Assembly: GCF_902143375.2 (NCBI RefSeq)
Contig: NZ_CABFVA020000086.1
Location: forward strand, 1 to 51,962
DNA length: 51,962 bases
Reading direction: 5' to 3'
From: Methylacidimicrobium tartarophylax
GTDB lineage: Bacteria; Verrucomicrobiota; Verrucomicrobiia; Methylacidiphilales; Methylacidiphilaceae
Shown here: piece after piece, positions 1 to 51,962 of the stretch
Position numbering within the stretch: position 1 is the first letter of the stretch
Layout of the letters: each line of letters opens with the position of its first letter
Notes under the pieces: model-generated
The model's database searches: none
Told to the model about the DNA's origin: nothing
The model's input: the letters and a program-made list of their open reading frames with translations, nothing else
Position numbers and translations under genes: made by a program

Positions 1-70
1 CAAGGCCCAACGAAGCAGACAGGTCTATTCCGCAAGCCGTAGGAGATCGCTTGTGAGACATGCCGGTTAG
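1..70 (+). repeat. dispersed inverted-repeat element, right half, cut by window edge
   Basis: The first 70 bases match the right half of the complete copy at 42905-43028: the stretches around CGAAGCAGACAGGT, GCAAGCCG and GGAGATCGCTTGTGAGACA line up base for base apart from a few substitutions. It ends with the element's TTGTGAGA core at 51-58. The left half would lie outside the window. The preceding CAAGGCCCAACG resembles the long variant (7357-7536) more than the short one. Confidence 0.8.
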
Positions 71-7356: not shown

Positions 7357-7536
7357 GCCGCCATTTCTCACAAGCTATCTCCTGCGGCTTGCAGAATGGG
7401 CTCGTCTGCTTCGTTGGGCTTGGTTTTCCATCCTCGCAGTATGTCTTCATACAGCTTCGGTGGAAAACCGGCGCCGCGCCTCGCCCCCAAGCCCATTTGC
7501 GGCGCCTCGGCTACGAAATTTGTGAGCAATGGCGGC
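7357..7536 (-). repeat. dispersed inverted-repeat element, complete long variant
   Basis: A 180-bp copy fills the gap between the convergent porin and peptidase genes. Its ends, 7357-7373 (GCCGCCATTTCTCACAA) and 7519-7536, are inverted repeats with one mismatch. In minus-strand orientation it carries the same modules as the copy at 42905-43028 (CGTAGCCGAGGCG, then CAACGAAGCAGAC, GCAAGCCGCAGGAGAT) plus about 56 bp extra in the middle. Confidence 0.85.
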
Positions 7537-14351: not shown

Positions 14352-14462
14352 TAGCCTGCCTGTCTCACAAAGTCCGAATCCGAGGCACGGCGAATGCGCC
14401 TGGATGCAAGGCGAAGCGCAAGTTTCCTCGAGAGCTTCTCGCTTGCCTCGCCGTTAGCCTAG
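14352..14462 (+). repeat. dispersed inverted-repeat element, variant right half
   Basis: The left half is intact (TAGCCTGCCTGTCTCACAAA, then GTCCGAATCCGAGGCACGGC and GCCTGGATGCAAG). The right half is replaced by a GC-rich palindrome around CTCGAG, and the copy ends in TTAGCCTA. It lies between the kdp leader and draG. Confidence 0.75.
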
Positions 14463-21306: not shown

Positions 21307-22920
21307 ATGTCGCCTCCTCCCACCGCTTTGGCGAAGACCCCCGAAGTAGAAGGGTCCGCGACGCGGGCGGACGAGGGCGAGGCCGAAAGCCGGATCGTCA
21401 TCCTCGACTTCGGCTCGCAGTACACCCAGCTCATCGCCCGCCGGATCCGGGAGCTCGGGGTCTTCTCGGAGATCGTCTCTCCCGAGACCCCCGCTCGCGC
21501 TCTGGCCCGGCCGGGGGTAAAGGGTCTCGTCCTCTCCGGAGGACCGTCGAGCGTCGCCCAAGAAGGGGCGCCCGTGCCCGATCCGGCGCTCTTCACCCTT
21601 GGACTTCCGGTGCTTGGGATCTGCTATGGACTCCAAGTCATGACCCGGCTTCTGGGCGGGGAGGTCGAGCGGGCGAAATCCGGCGAATACGGGCGGGCGG
21701 CGCTCGAGTGGCGTGCCTCTTCCCCGCTCTCCGCCGAGCTTCCCAGCCATTCGACGGTCTGGAATAGCCACGGCGACCGGGTATTACAGCCGCCCAAGGG
21801 CTTCGTCGTTCTCGCGCGGACCCAAGAAGAGCCCCATGCCGCGATCGCCGACCCGGATCGCCGGCTCTACGGCCTCCAGTTCCATCCGGAAGTGACCCAT
21901 ACCGACCTGGGGAAGGAGATCTTCGCCAACTTTCTCTTCCGGATCTGCCACGCTCCGGCAAGCTGGAAGCTCTCCTCTTTTCTCGACCGGAGCTGCGCCG
22001 AAATCCGGGCAAAGGTCGGAGGCGAGCAGGTGATCCTGGGATTGAGCGGAGGAGTCGATTCGAGCGTCGCCGCGGCCCTGCTCCATCGGGCCATCGGCGA
22101 CCAGCTCCACTGCCTCTTCGTCGACAACGGCCTCCTCCGCCAGGGAGAAGTGGAGACCGTGCGCCATCTCTTCGGCGAGCAGATGGGCTTTGCGCTCCAC
22201 GTCGTGGATGCGTCGGCGCGCTTCCTGGCGAAGCTGCGGGGGGTGGCCGATCCGGAGCGGAAGCGGAAGATCATCGGACGGGAGTTCATCCATGTATTCG
22301 AGGAGGCTGCCCGGAAGCTGGGACCGGTCCGGTTCCTGGCGCAGGGGACCCTCTATCCCGACTGCATCGAAAGCGCCGCGGCGGGCCACGGCCGGCCCGC
22401 GGTGATCAAGAGCCATCACAATGTGGGCGGGCTGCCGAAGCGGATGAAGATGCACCTGATCGAGCCGCTCCGCCTTCTGTTCAAGGACGAAGTCCGGGCA
22501 CTGGGCGAGCTTCTGGAGCTTCCCCGGGAGATCCTCTTCCGCCACCCCTTCCCCGGCCCGGGCTTGGCCGTCCGCTGCCTGGCTCCGATCAATCCCCACC
22601 ATCTCGCGCTGCTTCGCGCAGCCGACGCGATCGTGGTCGAGGAGATCCGCCGGGCGGGCCTCTACGAGGAGGTCTGGCAAGCCTTCGCCGTTCTTCTCCC
22701 TGCCCGGAGCGTGGGGGTCATGGGCGATGCCCGAACCTACGAATTGACCGCCGCGGTCCGGGCCGTGCAGAGCGTCGATGGGATGACCGCCGACTGGGCG
22801 CGGCTGCCCGGTGAGGTCCTTTCCCGGATCTCCAACCGGATCATCCAGGAGGTTCGCGGAATCAACCGGGTCGTCTACGACATCTCCTCCAAGCCGCCCG
22901 CGACAATCGAGTGGGAGTGA
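21307..22920 (+). CDS. guaA: GMP synthase (glutamine-hydrolysing)
   Basis: A 537-aa two-domain enzyme making GMP from XMP, ATP and glutamine. The class I amidotransferase domain has [17 protein letters not shown], the nucleophile C106 in LGICYG and the FHPEVTHT motif. The synthetase domain has the PP-loop [15 protein letters not shown], and the C-terminal dimerisation domain ends [11 protein letters not shown] as in all GuaA. An N-terminal extension of about 28 residues is not conserved, so the true start may be further in. Probably the last gene of the exbB-to-guaA transcript. Confidence 0.97.
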
Positions 22921-22947
22921 GGTTGTCCCATCGGGGACTATTCTAAT

Positions 22948-23002
22948 CGCCATTTCTCACCAACTTCGTACCCGAGGCGCAGCGAAAATGGGCCTGGATG
23001 GA
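22948..23002 (+). repeat. dispersed inverted-repeat element, left half only
   Basis: CGCCATTTCTCACCAACTTC, then GTACCCGAGGCGCAGCG and ATGGGCCTGGATGG match the left half of the family with the CCGCCATT-type outer arm also seen at 7357-7536. The right half is missing. The ATG at 22988 inside it opens the frame that runs into the methyltransferase gene. Confidence 0.75.
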
Positions 23003-24718
23003 TTGTCTGACCGCCTGGCAAGCAGCCATGGGGAGGGGCCGATTCCCCGGAACGGAGACGCGGGCCAAGGTAGCTGCTCACAGGGAAGAACTGCGCACCT
23101 GCCGGCGAGCGGAGGGGGGCTAAATGTCGGCCTGCGCGCACAAGCCACTTTGCAGAAGACAAACATAACGGCGCCCCCAAAGATTGAAAAACGGGATGCC
23201 ACCAGTCCGGAGGCCCGGTCCGCAGACTTCGTGGCCGGCAAGATCCAACAGCTCATGGCCCTGTTTCCCGAGCTGATTACCGAAGGCAAGAACGGTCCAG
23301 CCGTTAATGTGGATCGGCTCAAAGCCTTGGTGGGCGACAGAACGGTGACCGATGCCGATGAGAAGTATGGCCTGAACTGGTACGGCAAGCGCCGCGCATG
23401 GCAACTGGCGCTCACCCCCAGCACCGGCACGTTGCGCCCTTGCCCGGAAAAAAGCGTCGATTGGGCCACCAGTCGCCACCGGATGATTGAGGGCGACAAC
23501 CTCGAAGTCCTCAAGCTGCTACAGAAGAGCTACGGAGGCAGGGTCAAGCTCATCTATATCGACCCGCCGTACAACACCGGCAAGGATTTCGTCTACCCGG
23601 ACCGTTTTCAGGAGAGCATCAAAAATGATCCGGATTGGACCCGAAAGGGACAAGGCGGGGAGAAGATCCGCAGCAACACCGAAGCAAGCGGCCGATTTCA
23701 TACCAATTGGCTGAATATGATCTACCCGAGGCTGAAGCTCGCCCGGGAGCTACTCTGCGAAGAGGGCGTGATCTTTATCTCCATCGGTGATCGCGAGTTA
23801 GCCAATCTGCGCCAGGTTTGCGACGAGCTTTTCGGGGAAGAGCATTTTATTGCCCACATTGTCTGGGAGAAGAAGTACACGCGCTCCAACGATGCAACCT
23901 GGTTCTCGGCGAACCACGACCACATTCTGGCCTATGCGAAAAACAAGGAGCGGCTAAGGCTGAACCGGCAAGAGCGCAATCAGAAGCAGCTGAAAAGCTA
24001 TACCAACCCGGACCACCATCCGAAAGGTCCATGGAAAGCCACGCCACTCCATGCGAAAAGCGGCACCAACACAAAGTCGTTTACGTTCCGGAACGGGATC
24101 GTCTGGGCTCCGCCCAAAGGGACGTTCCGCCGGTTCAATGACGCGACCATGCAGCAAATGGAGGAAGGGAATGAGATCTGGTTTGGGGAGAAAGGGGGAC
24201 AAACCCCCCAGAGAAAGTCCTTCCTGAGTGAGGTAAAACAGGGCGTCACCCCGGTCACGCTCTGGCCCTATCAGGAGGTCGGGCATAGCCATGAGGCCAA
24301 CAATGAGCTAAAGGCGTTGGGCCTTGGCGGCATTTTTGAAAACCCGAAGCCGGTCCGGCTTCTTCGGCGGATGATCCACCTGGCGACGAGCCCCGATCGG
24401 GAGGAGATCGTTCTCGATTTTTTTGCCGGTTCCGGAACGACGGCCCAGGCGGTGTTAGAGGCGAACGTGCAGGACGGCGGCAACCGAAGGTTTATCTGCG
24501 TTCAGCTGCCTTACCCGCTCTCCCGCCCCGTGCATGACGAGCGGATGACGTTGACCACGATTGCCGATATGACCTCCGAAAGGATACGCCGGGCGGCCCG
24601 AGCCCTTCGGGCCCGTCAGGAAACATACAAAGGAGACCTGGGTTTTCGCGTCTACCGGCTCAGCAGCTCGAATCAACGGTCGAAAGTAGGCACGTCGACG
24701 CGGATCCAAACTTTGTGA
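22988..24718 (+). CDS. type III-like (Mod) site-specific DNA methyltransferase, C-terminally truncated
   Basis: An N6-adenine/N4-cytosine DNA methyltransferase of the Mod type. Motif IV DPPY is in KLIYIDPPYNTGKDFVYPDRF, the SAM-binding FxGxG motif is in IVLDFFAGSGTTAQAVLEAN (near the C-terminus, beta-class order), and TLRPCPEKSVDW with MIEGDNLEVLKLLQKSY are typical of the N-terminal region. Homology begins at about 23225. Starts at 22988 (inside a repeat), 23150 (TTG), 23231 (GTG) and 23254 are all possible. The protein breaks off at GFRVYRLSSSN and its stop lies in another repeat copy, so the usual C-terminal region is missing. No res gene follows. Activity is doubtful. Confidence 0.8.
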   Translation: MGLDGLSDRLASSHGEGPIPRNGDAGQGSCSQGRTAHLPASGGGLNVGLRAQATLQKTNITAPPKIEKRDATSPEARSADFVAGKIQQLMALFPELITEGKNGPAVNVDRLKALVGDRTVTDADEKYGLNWYGKRRAWQLALTPSTGTLRPCPEKSVDWATSRHRMIEGDNLEVLKLLQKSYGGRVKLIYIDPPYNTGKDFVYPDRFQESIKNDPDWTRKGQGGEKIRSNTEASGRFHTNWLNMIYPRLKLARELLCEEGVIFISIGDRELANLRQVCDELFGEEHFIAHIVWEKKYTRSNDATWFSANHDHILAYAKNKERLRLNRQERNQKQLKSYTNPDHHPKGPWKATPLHAKSGTNTKSFTFRNGIVWAPPKGTFRRFNDATMQQMEEGNEIWFGEKGGQTPQRKSFLSEVKQGVTPVTLWPYQEVGHSHEANNELKALGLGGIFENPKPVRLLRRMIHLATSPDREEIVLDFFAGSGTTAQAVLEANVQDGGNRRFICVQLPYPLSRPVHDERMTLTTIADMTSERIRRAARALRARQETYKGDLGFRVYRLSSSNQRSKVGTSTRIQTL

Positions 24719-24825
24719 GACAGGCAAGCCGGCACCGGGATTGTTTCCCGTACGCTCTCCACTCTGGCGAACGGGTTGAGGATCCTGTCGCTGATGGGGT
24801 TCGTGTCGAGCAGAGAGCCGCTCAA
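24673..24825 (-). pseudogene. truncated VapC-type PIN-domain toxin
   Basis: A frame starting TTG at 24825 reads LSGSLLDTNPISDRILNPFA, then RVESVRETIPVPACL. The LLDTN with its metal-binding Asp, followed by ISD..+NP, is the N-terminus of VapC PIN ribonucleases. Homology is lost after about 30 residues, at the repeat fragment, so the rest of the roughly 130-aa toxin is gone. The start overlaps the preceding antitoxin-like stop by 4 nt, the usual vapBC arrangement. Confidence 0.5.
24692..24730 (-). repeat. dispersed inverted-repeat element, terminal fragment
   Basis: Read on the minus strand, GGCTTGCCTGTCTCACAAAG followed by TTTGGATCCG is the left end of the family (compare TGCCTGTCTCACAAAGTCCGAATCCG at 14358). 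It carries the stop codon of the truncated methyltransferase and marks the break in the vapC remnant. Confidence 0.7.
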
Positions 24826-41361: not shown

Positions 41362-41399
41362 CCGTCGCGGAGAGCGCCGAGTTTTCCGTCCTCCTACCA

Positions 41400-41418
41400 C
41401 TCCGGTGAAACACCGGAG
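41400..41418 (+). terminator. hairpin downstream of cysK, no U-tract
   Basis: CTCCGGTG-AAA-CACCGGAG is a perfect 8-bp stem with a three-base loop, 39 nt after the cysK stop. No T-run follows, so it may be a processing or stability hairpin rather than an intrinsic terminator. Confidence 0.35.
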
Positions 41419-41481
41419 CCCCGCCTCGTATCCATGGCCATCGGCTTCGCCTCTGGCAGGAACTTTATCAGAAATGCTGGC

Positions 41482-42896: not shown

Positions 42897-42904
42897 CCTG
42901 GGGT

Positions 42905-43028
42905 TAGCCTGTCTGTCTCACAAAGTTCGTAGCCGAGGCGCGGCGGATGGGCCTGGATGCAAGACGCAACGAAGCAGACAGGTCCATTTCGCAAGCCGCA
43001 GGAGATCGCTTGTGAGACAGGCAGGCTA
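42905..43028 (+). repeat. dispersed inverted-repeat element, complete short copy (reference)
   Basis: A 124-bp element whose ends, 42905-42923 and 43010-43028, are 19-bp inverted repeats with one mismatch (TAGCCTGTCTGTCTCACAA against the complement of TTGTGAGACAGGCAGGCTA). Inner parts also pair (GATGGGCC with GGTCCATT allowing G-U; GCGGC with GCCGC), so the whole element can fold into one long imperfect hairpin with a loop around GCAACGAAGCAGACA. It lies between convergent apt and the DUF486 gene. No transposase is encoded. Confidence 0.9.
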
Positions 43029-43352
43029 GCCCTTAAAGGCGAAATAGACTGCGGCCACCAGGAAACCGTAGGAGACCAGAAGATTCCATCGAGGGACGGC
43101 CCCGAAGAGAAAGTAGGCCAGGACCGTGAAGACCAAGAGGGTGATGCACTCCTGCATCACCTTGAGTTGTGTTACGGAAAACTCATACGATCCGATCCGG
43201 TTGGCCGGCACCTGAAAGACATACTCCAATAAGGCGAGCCCCCAGCTTGCCAGAATCGCAAGCAGGAGCGGCTTGTCGCGAAACTTCAAATGCCCGTACC
43301 AGGCGAGGGTCATGAAGATATTGGAGACGACTAGCAGGAGAATCGTCTTCAT
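43026..43352 (-). CDS. DUF486 family membrane protein
   Basis: A 108-aa protein with four membrane helices, matching the DUF486 family (MKTILLLVVSNIFMTLAWYG; YVFQVPANRIG; QLKVMQECITL). The family belongs to the small DMT-like membrane proteins and has no established function. Its TAG stop is the terminal triplet of the dispersed repeat, three bases beyond the conserved F(R/K)G end, so the protein appears complete. Confidence 0.88.
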   Translation of the reverse strand: MKTILLLVVSNIFMTLAWYGHLKFRDKPLLLAILASWGLALLEYVFQVPANRIGSYEFSVTQLKVMQECITLLVFTVLAYFLFGAVPRWNLLVSYGFLVAAVYFAFKG

Positions 43353-43355
43353 GAC

Positions 43356-43397
43356 TAGCCCGCCGGTCTCACAAAGTTCGTACCCGAGGTGGGGCGG
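43356..43397 (+). repeat. dispersed inverted-repeat element, left half
   Basis: TAGCCCGCCGGTCTCACAAA followed by GTTCGTACCCGAGGTGGGGC matches the left half of the reference copy. The matching right half may be the fragment at 44058-44146, on the far side of one gene. Confidence 0.75.
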
Positions 43398-43405
43398 TCA
43401 AGACC

Positions 43406-44029
43406 TTACCGCGGCCCCTCGGCGAGGCTCATGGAGATTTTTTGATAATCCGCCGGGGGCTCGAAGAGAGCGGCCGGCTGCGGGCCCGCCTGATACTGAT
43501 CCCAATCGACCACGGTCTTCGCATCCATCAGAGCCACCCGCAAGGGGAACTTGCCGGCTTCCTCTACCCAAATGTAGACGCTCTTCTGGTTTCCTTTCAT
43601 CCGGTACTTCGCGCAGGCATGTCCGCGGATCGTCTCCTTCCCTTCCAACACCCAAGAGGCGCCAGCCTCTGCGGGGATGCCCAGGTTGGCCGCGGATCCC
43701 GTGTCCCGGTAGCTGCTCTCCAGGACAAGCTTGCTCGCCGGAAGGATCGTGTACACTCTCTTCTGATCCTTCCGCAACAGGATGATCTGCGTTTCGGGAC
43801 CTTGCTGGGATTCGAGCCGGAGCTTGTCGCCATCCCGATAGAGGTGCTGCACGATCGTCACTCCCCCATCGATCTGGGTGGTCTGAATCACGGAGAACTG
43901 ATTGCCCAGGGTGTATGGCTCCCTCGCCTGTTCGCCCCAGGCGCGAAAAGTCCCGAAGAGGAAAAGAAGAGTGGCGAGAAGCGCAGCGAACCGCACCTGA
44001 ACGGAGGCTCCCGGCGGACGGAGGTCCAT
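43406..44029 (-). CDS. exported protein, LolA/DUF4412-like fold
   Basis: A 207-aa protein with an N-terminal signal segment (VRFAALLATLLFLFGTFRAWG, about 12-32). The mature part (TTQIDGGVTIVQHLYRDGDK, KDQKRVYTILPASKLVLE, YRMKGNQKSVYIWVEEAGKF) has the alternating beta pattern of periplasmic lipoprotein-carrier-like (LolA/LolB, DUF4412) domains that bind hydrophobic molecules. The match is by pattern only. It is bracketed by left and right halves of the dispersed repeat, as if carried inside one element. The ATG at 44029 follows GGAGG. Confidence 0.65.
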   Translation of the reverse strand: MDLRPPGASVQVRFAALLATLLFLFGTFRAWGEQAREPYTLGNQFSVIQTTQIDGGVTIVQHLYRDGDKLRLESQQGPETQIILLRKDQKRVYTILPASKLVLESSYRDTGSAANLGIPAEAGASWVLEGKETIRGHACAKYRMKGNQKSVYIWVEEAGKFPLRVALMDAKTVVDWDQYQAGPQPAALFEPPADYQKISMSLAEGPR

Positions 44030-44057
44030 GGCTCGCGAAGCTACTGACCTTTTCAAC

Positions 44058-44146
44058 GATGGGCCAGCAACAAATGCGGCAGCGGCCGGAAAAACAGGTC
44101 GATCAGGGGCAAGCCGCAGGAAAACGCTGGGGGGACAGGCAGGCTA
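44058..44146 (+). repeat. dispersed inverted-repeat element, degenerate right half
   Basis: GATGGGCC at its start, ACAGGTC, GCAAGCCGCAGGA and the terminal GACAGGCAGGCTAG align in order with the reference right half, with a diverged stretch between. The terminal CTA provides the TAG stop of rlmN on the opposite strand. Confidence 0.7.
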
Positions 44147-45193
44147 GATCCTCATGGGGGAGGAGTCCGGAAGGGTCGCCAGCCGAAGCTGGCCGCAGGC
44201 CGCAAAGATCTCTTCCCCTTTCCGCGTCCGTACCGTGACGCGGCAGCCGCTCTTTTGCAAAAGACTTTCGAAGCGATCCACCCTCGCCGGGTCGGGGCGG
44301 TCCCAAGGCAACGAATCCACCCGATTGTAGGGGATCAAGTTGATCTTCGCCCGCAATCTGCGGGAGATCTTGCTCAAATCCGCGGCGTCATCGTCCGAGT
44401 CGTTGACTCCCGCAAGGAGAATGTATTCGAGGGTAATCCTCTGCCGCTTCTTCCTGCTGTATTCGTCGCAGGCATCGAGGAGCAGAGGCAGCGGATGTTT
44501 GCGGTTGACGGGCATCAGCCGGGAGCGAAGGGCATCGCTTGCCGCGTGGAGAGAGATGGCAAGCCCCACGGCCAAGGGCTCTTCGGCCAGCCTTCGGATC
44601 TCCGGAACCAGACCACTGGTCGATACCGTGATCCGCCGAGGGCTCAACCCAAAACCCCAAGGGGCGGTGAGGAGCCGCAAGGATCGCAAAAGAGAGTCCC
44701 AGTTCGCGAGCGGCTCACCCATCCCCATGAAGACCAGGTTGTCCACACGTCTTCCGGCGGCCTCTTCGGCTTGCAGGAGCTGTTCGACGATCTCGCCCGA
44801 GGAGAGGTTGCGCCGGAAGCCGAGAAGGCCGCTCGCGCAAAACGCGCATCGGTAGGCGCAGCCCACTTGGCTCGAAAGACAGAGGGTTAGCCTCCCCAAA
44901 GCGGCATCCGATTCTGCGGGAATCAAGACGCTTTCTACCGCATCGCCCCCGGGTAGCTCCCAAAGCAGCTTCTGGACGCCGTCGCCGTTCTGCCGCACGC
45001 GAGCCCTCCGCAGGGAGCGCAACTCGTATCGGTCGGCCAGTTCCCTCCGCAAAGAGAGGGGCAGGCTCGTCATCTGCGCAAAAGAAGAGGCCCGTTTCTC
45101 GAAGACCCATTGGCCCAGAACCCTCCGCTGATAGGACGGCCCGCTCCCCATCTCCCACTCCTCGGGAGTCTGGTCGAGAAGATGCCGCTTCAT
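44144..45193 (-). CDS. rlmN: 23S rRNA (adenine2503-C2)-methyltransferase RlmN
   Basis: A 349-aa radical-SAM enzyme methylating A2503 of 23S rRNA and A37 of some tRNAs. The 4Fe-4S motif is CAYRCAFC (CxxxCxxC) in LSSQVGCAYRCAFCASGLLG; MGMGEPLANWD and LAISLHAASD are typical. The C-terminal region holds the second reactive cysteine (KSGCRVTVRTRKGEEIFAACGQL). The stop codon is the last triplet of a dispersed-repeat copy. The ATG at 45193 begins the family N-terminus. Confidence 0.94.
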   Translation of the reverse strand: MKRHLLDQTPEEWEMGSGPSYQRRVLGQWVFEKRASSFAQMTSLPLSLRRELADRYELRSLRRARVRQNGDGVQKLLWELPGGDAVESVLIPAESDAALGRLTLCLSSQVGCAYRCAFCASGLLGFRRNLSSGEIVEQLLQAEEAAGRRVDNLVFMGMGEPLANWDSLLRSLRLLTAPWGFGLSPRRITVSTSGLVPEIRRLAEEPLAVGLAISLHAASDALRSRLMPVNRKHPLPLLLDACDEYSRKKRQRITLEYILLAGVNDSDDDAADLSKISRRLRAKINLIPYNRVDSLPWDRPDPARVDRFESLLQKSGCRVTVRTRKGEEIFAACGQLRLATLPDSSPMRI

Positions 45194-45210
45194 GTCCAGT
45201 CGCCCCCTTT

Positions 45211-45228
45211 CGTCTGCCTGTCTCACCA
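45211..45228 (+). repeat. short terminal fragment of the dispersed repeat
   Basis: CTGCCTGTCTCACCAGC matches the left terminus of the family for about 14 bases and then diverges. It lies between rlmN and dcd. Confidence 0.45.
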
Positions 45229-45245
45229 GCGTTCTGCTGCGGCGA

Positions 45246-45815
45246 TCACGGCAAGGGGATAGTGATCCCCTTCTGCCGCATATATTTCCCGTTGCGATCG
45301 GCATAGGAAGTCTCGCACGGTTCCGCCGCTTCCAAAAAGATGACCTGGGCCAATCCCTCATTGGCGTAGACCTTCGCCGGCAGCGGAGTCGTATTCGAAA
45401 TTTCCAGGGTCACATGCCCTTCCCACTCCGGCTCGAACGGGGTCACGTTCACGATGATCCCGCACCGAGCGTAGGTCGATTTCCCCAGGCAGATTGTGAT
45501 CACATTCCGAGGGATCCGAAAATGTTCGACGCTCCGCGCCAAGGCAAAGGAGTTGGGAGGAATGATGCAGGCATCGGCCCTGACATCCACAAAGGAGCGG
45601 GGATCGAAGAGCTTGGGGTCGACCACGGTGTTGAACACGTTGGTGAAGATCTTGAACTCATTGGATACGCGCAAGTCGTAGCCGTAGCTGGAGAGTCCAT
45701 AGCTGACCACCGGCTCTTCCGAGGAGGCCCGTCGCACTTGGGCTTCCACAAAGGGTTCGATCATCTTCTCCTCCAGCGCCTTTCGCCGGATCCAAGAATC
45801 AGAGTGGACGCCCAT
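45246..45815 (-). CDS. dcd: dCTP deaminase
   Basis: A 189-aa trimeric enzyme converting dCTP to dUTP for thymidylate synthesis. Motifs are [14 protein letters not shown], the substrate-binding [20 protein letters not shown] with the catalytic Glu in [18 protein letters not shown], and [10 protein letters not shown]. The C-terminal KGITIPLP is typical of Dcd. Its start overlaps the end of the SDR gene by 17 nt. Last gene of the minus-strand hisS-aspS-pyk run. Confidence 0.95.
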
Positions 45816-51672: not shown

Positions 51673-51889
51673 AGATCGATCCGTTGTGGCTTCCTTCTCC
51701 GGAAGCCGTTTCTACGGAAAGAATAGGCTGAAACTGGACCGGCACAACCGAAAAAAGCGAAAGGAATGCCTTTTGCCGTCCCGCCCCACCCTGCATGGCG
51801 GCTGACCGGAAAGCGAATTTCCCCGCCTCGGCTTGCAAATCCAGGCGCGTCTGCTTTCCTTGGGCTCGGCATGTGCTTGTTCCCGTTTC
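51673..51889. other. intergenic stretch upstream of the HU/IHF gene
   Basis: No gene is supported. A TATTCT-like box on the minus strand (51722-51727) could serve the HU/IHF gene. The open frames here are high-GC shadows. Confidence 0.4.
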
Positions 51890-51962
51890 TAGCCTGCATA
51901 TCTCACAAGCGATCTCCTGCGGCTTGCGAAATGGGCCTGTTTGCTTCGTTGCGCCTTGGTTT
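51890..51962 (-). repeat. dispersed inverted-repeat element, cut by window edge
   Basis: TAGCCTGCATATCTCACAAG, then CGATCTCCTGCGGCTTGCG and GGGCCTG..TGCTTCGTTGCGCCTTGG is the right half of the family in minus orientation. It runs off the window in the long-variant sequence (CCTTGGTTT, compare 7423-7431). Confidence 0.85.

Follow-up and report, generated by a model that had tools for sequence, protein, structure and literature searches.

A long palindromic repeat is scattered over the 51,962-nucleotide stretch of DNA analysed here (the window), and the question is what kind of sequence it is. The sequence-only reading had left three answers standing: a MITE, a REPIN-like element, or a structured RNA module constrained by pairing. 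The window makes up the whole of contig C86 in its genome assembly (G000; 2.33 Mb, 137 contigs), which we compared with relatives from the same genus (G001 to G006). The results strongly support the first answer, namely that the repeats are MITEs: short, gene-free, non-autonomous inverted-repeat elements. Their transposase is very probably supplied by a larger insertion sequence of the IS1380 family, which both this bacterium and its relatives carry. That common ends and a common type of target duplication tie the family to IS1380 is, to judge from the sequences compared, the explanation in which we place high confidence. The kind of element, a type I MITE, is well known; this family is new.

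Copies in the window

About ten dispersed copies or pieces had been described, and the TCTCACAA/TTGTGAGA cores that define them are indeed found at the places given. One of these pieces (24701-24726) is weak, and a degenerate half-element (41388-41480) had been overlooked; the other incomplete pieces match known copies with E values from 1e-6 to 1e-25. The features are as follows.

1-66, minus strand: element end cut off by the contig end; 92% identity over 66 bp to copy L047; TTAG flank at 67-70
7358-7535, plus strand: complete element of 178 bp with the long interior and CCGCCATT ends; 93% identity over 178/178 positions to copy L036; flanks TGAG and CTAG
14355-14429, minus strand: partial element, one terminus and interior; 83-86% identity over 71-75 bp; second terminus absent up to 14462
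22948-23000, minus strand: half-element relic with a CCGCCATT-like end; 89% identity over 53 bp, E 1e-13
24701-24726, plus strand: probable short terminal relic; 88% identity over 26 bp, best E 6e-4
41388-41480, plus strand: degenerate half-element; 76% identity over 89 bp, E 1e-13
42904-42907: left target-duplication copy of the 118-bp element, TTAG; a single TTAC at the empty site in G003
42908-43025, minus strand: complete element of 118 bp with the short interior and CTG-type ends; 93% identity over 118/118 positions to copy L003 of G000
42908-42923 and 43010-43025: terminal inverted repeats of the 118-bp element, termini CCTGTCTGTCTCACAA / CCTGCCTGTCTCACAA
43026-43029: right target-duplication copy of the 118-bp element, CTAG; one base off the left copy
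43366-43397, minus strand: half-element relic with its terminus at about 43359; 94% identity over 32 bp, E 8e-9
44094-44143, minus strand: half-element relic, followed by CTAG (44144-44147); 80% identity over 50 bp, E 1e-6
45214-45243, plus strand: short terminal relic; the real start of gene 44144-45361 probably lies just downstream of it; 90% identity over 30 bp, E 2e-6
51893-51962, plus strand: element end cut off by the contig end; 93% identity over 70 bp to L047; preceded by CTAG at 51889-51892

Both complete copies fold end to end, as had been claimed, with hairpin energies of -85.4 kcal/mol (178-bp copy) and -69.8 kcal/mol (118-bp copy) over the intervals first drawn; the copy placed at 14352-14462 is partial, lacks a second terminus and has no such fold. 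The two size classes correspond to two interiors, but the boundaries that gave them 124 and 180 bp were too wide, and the true elements measure 118 and 178 bp. We also considered, and rejected, a cargo-carrying element in which the half-copies 43366-43397 and 44094-44143 would enclose the gene at 43406-44056, because that gene keeps the same place in 6/6 relatives. Two reading frames in the window end within such sequence: the stop codon of the frame at 22811-24718 (plus strand) lies in the probable relic at 24701-24726, and that of the frame at 43026-43352 (minus strand) lies in the target duplication at 43026-43028. The ends of genes may therefore have been altered by insertions. Gene context across G000 was taken from crude calling of open reading frames, in which palindromes and GC-rich antisense frames yield false ones.

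Insertion sites and target duplication

On either side of the element stands one copy of a directly duplicated 4-bp target, which is YTAR-like and most often CTAG. In G006, where the termini CGGCCATT...AATGGCCG stand between duplicated flanks, the two 4-bp flanks are identical in 32/45 copies; when right flanks were redealt among copies the mean was 12.0, and 0/5000 rounds reached 32. The pairs include CTAG/CTAG, TTAA/TTAA, TTAG/TTAG, CTAA/CTAA, TGAA/TGAA, TTGA/TTGA and CTAT/CTAT. Non-palindromic left flanks were repeated directly in 8/13 cases and inverted in 0/13, and frames shifted by 1-4 bp gave no excess of matching flanks (0) in this genome. Because the flanks are direct rather than inverted and the shifted frames give nothing, they represent a duplicated target and do not prolong the palindrome, as the outer TAG had first been taken to do. 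The true ends thus lie 1-3 bp further in than originally drawn, the outer TAG/CTAG belonging to the duplication and not to the arm. In G000 perfect duplications remain at 7/40 copies (shuffle mean 3.6; 217/5000 shuffles reach 7) and most are eroded, as are the G000 copies themselves; in G003 the count is 0/8.

Empty orthologous sites, whose comparison had been proposed as a check, exist in relatives. The window copy at 42908-43025 is precisely absent from the orthologous site in G003, where the flank is 94% identical and is joined by a single TTAC, against TTAG-element-CTAG in the window. With eight joined flank pairs as query against the genus relatives, alignments ran in register over the predicted empty junctions of L034, L036, L037, L047, L050 and L003 (in G002, G003 or G006). 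Several are gapless; L050 and L034 in G003 and L037 and L036 in G002 are examples of in-register junctions, while the alignments for L003 and L047 have small gaps near the junction. A further copy, on contig C70 of G000, is nested within a gene for an IS1380 transposase. Where it is uninterrupted, elsewhere, this gene reads CTCTTTAAGATCGG; the interrupted form reads CCCTTTAA-MITE-TAAAGATCGG, a 4-bp duplication that has since changed at one position. The sequences show that the element is cut precisely at its termini and enters YTAR-like sites of 4 bp, most often CTAG, which it duplicates.

A probable IS1380-family partner

The window holds no transposase, as first stated; a matching one, of the IS1380 family, is found elsewhere in the genome and in the genus. 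A search with the terminus pattern alone revealed, in G001 and G005, pairs of termini at spacings of 1.7 kb and 3.6 kb, and these pairs are IS1380-family insertion sequences with a 462-aa transposase frame. The transposase scores 396 bits with NF033539 (IS1380), against a cut-off of 180, and 500 bits with PF13701, members of which were found in G000, G001, G003, G004, G005 and G006. The copies are 1709-1711 bp long, with inverted repeats of about 16 bp and 4-bp duplications (CTAG, CTAA, TTAG, ATAG); a transposase above the curated cut-off, a length of about 1.5-1.7 kb, inverted repeats of about 16 bp and duplications of 4-5 bp are what places an element in this family. The values fit those of the IS1380-family members ISPa33a (1561 bp, IR 16/16, DR 4) and ISPsp9 (1718 bp, IR 21/18, DR 5) (PMC4133298). 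Unlike such members, the MITE carries no transposase and has only the termini in common with them.

It is these ends that answer the call for a transposase with matching termini. The 1.7-kb elements and the MITEs have common CCNNNATNTCTCAC termini. IS1380 ends read CCGCCATTTCTCACCA, CCGCCATTTCTCAC[CG]A, CCCCCATTTCTCACCA, CCCCGATATCTCACCA and CGGCCATTTCTCACCA; MITE ends read CGGCCATT, CCGCCATT and CCTGCATG. The CGGCCATTTCTCACCA terminus, on one IS1380 copy of G006, is of the type that forms the arms of the MITEs in that genome, and the CTG-type terminus is carried by two IS1380 relics of the same genome, L216 and L217 (CCTGCACGTCTCACCA, CCTGCATGTCTCACCG). Every MITE arm variant is present on at least one IS1380 end. 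An intact autonomous IS1380 bounded by two CTG-type ends was searched for and not found; the search gave only relics with one such end. The single near-complete IS1380 in the G000 assembly (on C52) is frameshifted, so that no intact transposase was found in the assembly of the window's own genome. The best blastn matches between MITE and IS1380 cover 14-17 terminal bp only, plus an isolated 20-bp match to an intron-bearing G005 copy; with overlap among these best matches so limited, the idea that the MITE is an internally deleted IS1380 was rejected. It would be the IS1380 transposase that catalyses movement of the MITEs in trans.

The MITEs might instead be moved by another DDE family that duplicates 4 bp, for instance IS5 or IS701, the likeness to IS1380 being a coincidence. 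YTAR is the target of both IS5 and IS701. Elements of the IS5 group also make 4-bp duplications (PMC4133298). Against this stand the 14-17 terminal bp common to MITE and IS1380, the occurrence of all arm variants among IS1380 ends, and the fact that IS1380 itself makes the same target duplication; we consider such a coincidence very improbable.

The findings agree with the definition of a type I MITE as a multicopy element of about 30-300 bp without a transposase gene (PMC4133298). The present elements are 118 or 176-183 bp long and occur in tens of copies per genome; their terminal inverted repeats resemble those of IS1380 in the genome and its close relatives, the duplication is 4 bp and YTAR-like in both, and filled and empty sites coexist. 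Of the alternatives first offered, it is thus the MITE that was borne out, by the direct duplications, the empty sites, the copy nested in IS1380 and the autonomous IS1380 with matching ends.

Some arrangements of the partner deserve mention in their own right. At L118 and L124 in G006, a MITE directly adjoins an IS1380 copy with one CTAG common to both, as if the target duplication of one had served as the target of the other. In G005, the IS1380 copies L096 (G005:C1:871900-876200), L097, L098 and L105 have been split by a group II intron carrying a reverse transcriptase/maturase (TIGR04416, 350 bits). These intron-bearing copies measure 3.6 kb; they retain their two ends, and their target duplications are mostly intact. 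L105, at 5.5 kb, seemingly has further intron sequence inside.

Arm types, base pairing and range of the family

At least two types of outer arm had been distinguished; there are in fact at least three, CCTGC[AC]T[GA], CCGCCATT and, in G006, CGGCCATT, and to judge from the ends described above they are terminal variants also borne by IS1380 copies. The claim that both arms match in each complete copy holds to the extent that arm type is strongly correlated between ends, but a hybrid with mismatched arms exists as an old insertion common to two genomes: L045 of G000 and the orthologous L177 of G003 have one CCGCCATT end and one CCTGCCTG-like end. Loop size and arm type are unlinked, CTG-type arms being found on short (118 bp) as well as long (179 bp) interiors; the 118-bp form may have arisen, by deletion within the interior, from the 179-bp form with CTG ends. 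The arms match because whole subfamilies were amplified. Each subfamily would have been founded by an element with its own terminal variant and then multiplied, presumably recently in G006 and longer ago in G000; pairwise identity has a median of 0.978 among 42 G006 copies and is about 0.90 within the long-form subfamilies of G000.

In single IS1380 copies (L113, L118, L129, L115) the two ends are often unlike within bases 2-8, whereas those of MITE subfamilies are matched. One could envision that MITEs swap their terminal 8 bp as one block, leave the interior unchanged, and so retain matched arms despite the often unequal arms of IS1380. We regard this as a rather unlikely conjecture; if true, the exchange would point to copying from arm to arm, for example by gene conversion or by template switching through the hairpin, and would let MITEs track shifts in the terminus preferred by the transposase.

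Matched arms are also what one would expect of a structured RNA or DNA module, such as a terminator, attenuator or regulatory hairpin, selected for base pairing. Both complete window copies sit between convergent genes, the hairpins are stable, and paired positions substitute slightly less than unpaired ones. Changes were scored against each subfamily consensus in four groups (G006 and groups A, B and C of G000). Most are one-sided and break pairs: the numbers of pairs broken and compensated are 40/1 in G006, 66/7 in group B, 82/12 in group C and 13/2 in group A. Both-sided changes, observed versus expected from independence in a model that leaves out the relatedness of copies, amount to 1/0.5, 16/5.1, 12/7.0 and 2/1.4 in the four groups, taken in the same order, which is not far above chance. 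In group B, 9/16 of them do not pair, and the excess may be explained by relatedness among copies. Substitution rates at paired and unpaired positions are 0.0108/0.0134, 0.066/0.086, 0.065/0.092 and 0.036/0.049, that is, about 20-30% lower where paired. Overall, these figures point at most weakly to a pairing constraint. Close relatives have empty sites, and a search of Rfam at the repeats returned no match above a gathering score, the only hit being mir-231, a generic hairpin match below its own. The proposal of an RNA module constrained by its pairing is therefore not supported and has, in our estimation, very little chance of being right; in the MITE reading, the long palindrome would be a by-product of how the MITE originated, with no functional RNA involved.

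REPINs are not known to leave a target duplication. A REP or REPIN family moved by a RAYT (a Y1 tyrosine transposase) shares with the present one short, dispersed palindromes, and the genome does encode one Y1 transposase, but the search for a RAYT with matching ends found none: this sole Y1 enzyme is an IS200/IS605 TnpA (144.9 bits, cut-off 55; 31.3 bits with the REP-associated model, cut-off 80), neither element termini nor a copy of the element flank its gene, and the repeats have a 4-bp target duplication and ends in common with a DDE-type insertion sequence, IS1380, so that this option can be considered ruled out for practical purposes.

Closer parallels to the MITEs described here are MITEPye1 of Paracoccus yeei, which is related to IS1182 (PMC11578231), and the Correia elements (CREE) of Neisseria; like them, the present elements are short and gene-free, with terminal inverted repeats matching those of an insertion sequence, short target duplications and a long stem-loop fold. 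They differ in having IS1380 as partner and in the coexistence of three arm variants; the CREE target is TA, compared with the 4-bp YTAR-like site here. The literature searched, ISfinder and subscription journals lying outside it, yielded no MITE family tied to IS1380, no such MITE in acidophilic verrucomicrobial methanotrophs, and nothing on IS1380 in combination with YTAR, or with CTAG and repeat terms.

Recognisable copies or pieces number about 80 in G000 and about 50 in one relative. In G000, 53 matches were obtained with the short copy and 41 with the long copy, the two sets overlapping. A one-end pattern found 79 sites in G000, 46 in G006, 18 in G003 and 1 in G004, and 0 in G001, G002 and G005; the reversed control also gave 0. 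A G006 copy used as query matched 53 times in its own genome and 23 times in G003. It also picked up weak, old relics in G001, G002, G004 and G005, and nothing in six genomes that represent the family's other two genera. With the window copy as query against 40 relatives, only three matches of 31-37 bp (E 0.001-0.005) lay outside the genus. The MITE family is thus confined to one genus of the Methylacidiphilaceae; the nearest named records with the repeat are contigs of Candidatus Methylacidiphilaceae MAG STC_89.

The window contig breaks inside a MITE at both ends (1-66 and 51893-51962), and contigs C85, C124, C77, C97, C75, C115, C78, C67, C68, C83, C80, C102 and C79 of G000 also end in or beside one. 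This suggests that the MITE breaks short-read assembly, and it probably fragments such assemblies across the genus. An ambiguous palindromic repeat has been settled with respect to its boundaries, target site, taxonomic range and likely transposase. G006, in which some 40 almost identical MITEs coexist with several IS1380 copies whose transposase frame is uninterrupted, offers a good natural system for studying the mobilisation of MITEs in trans.
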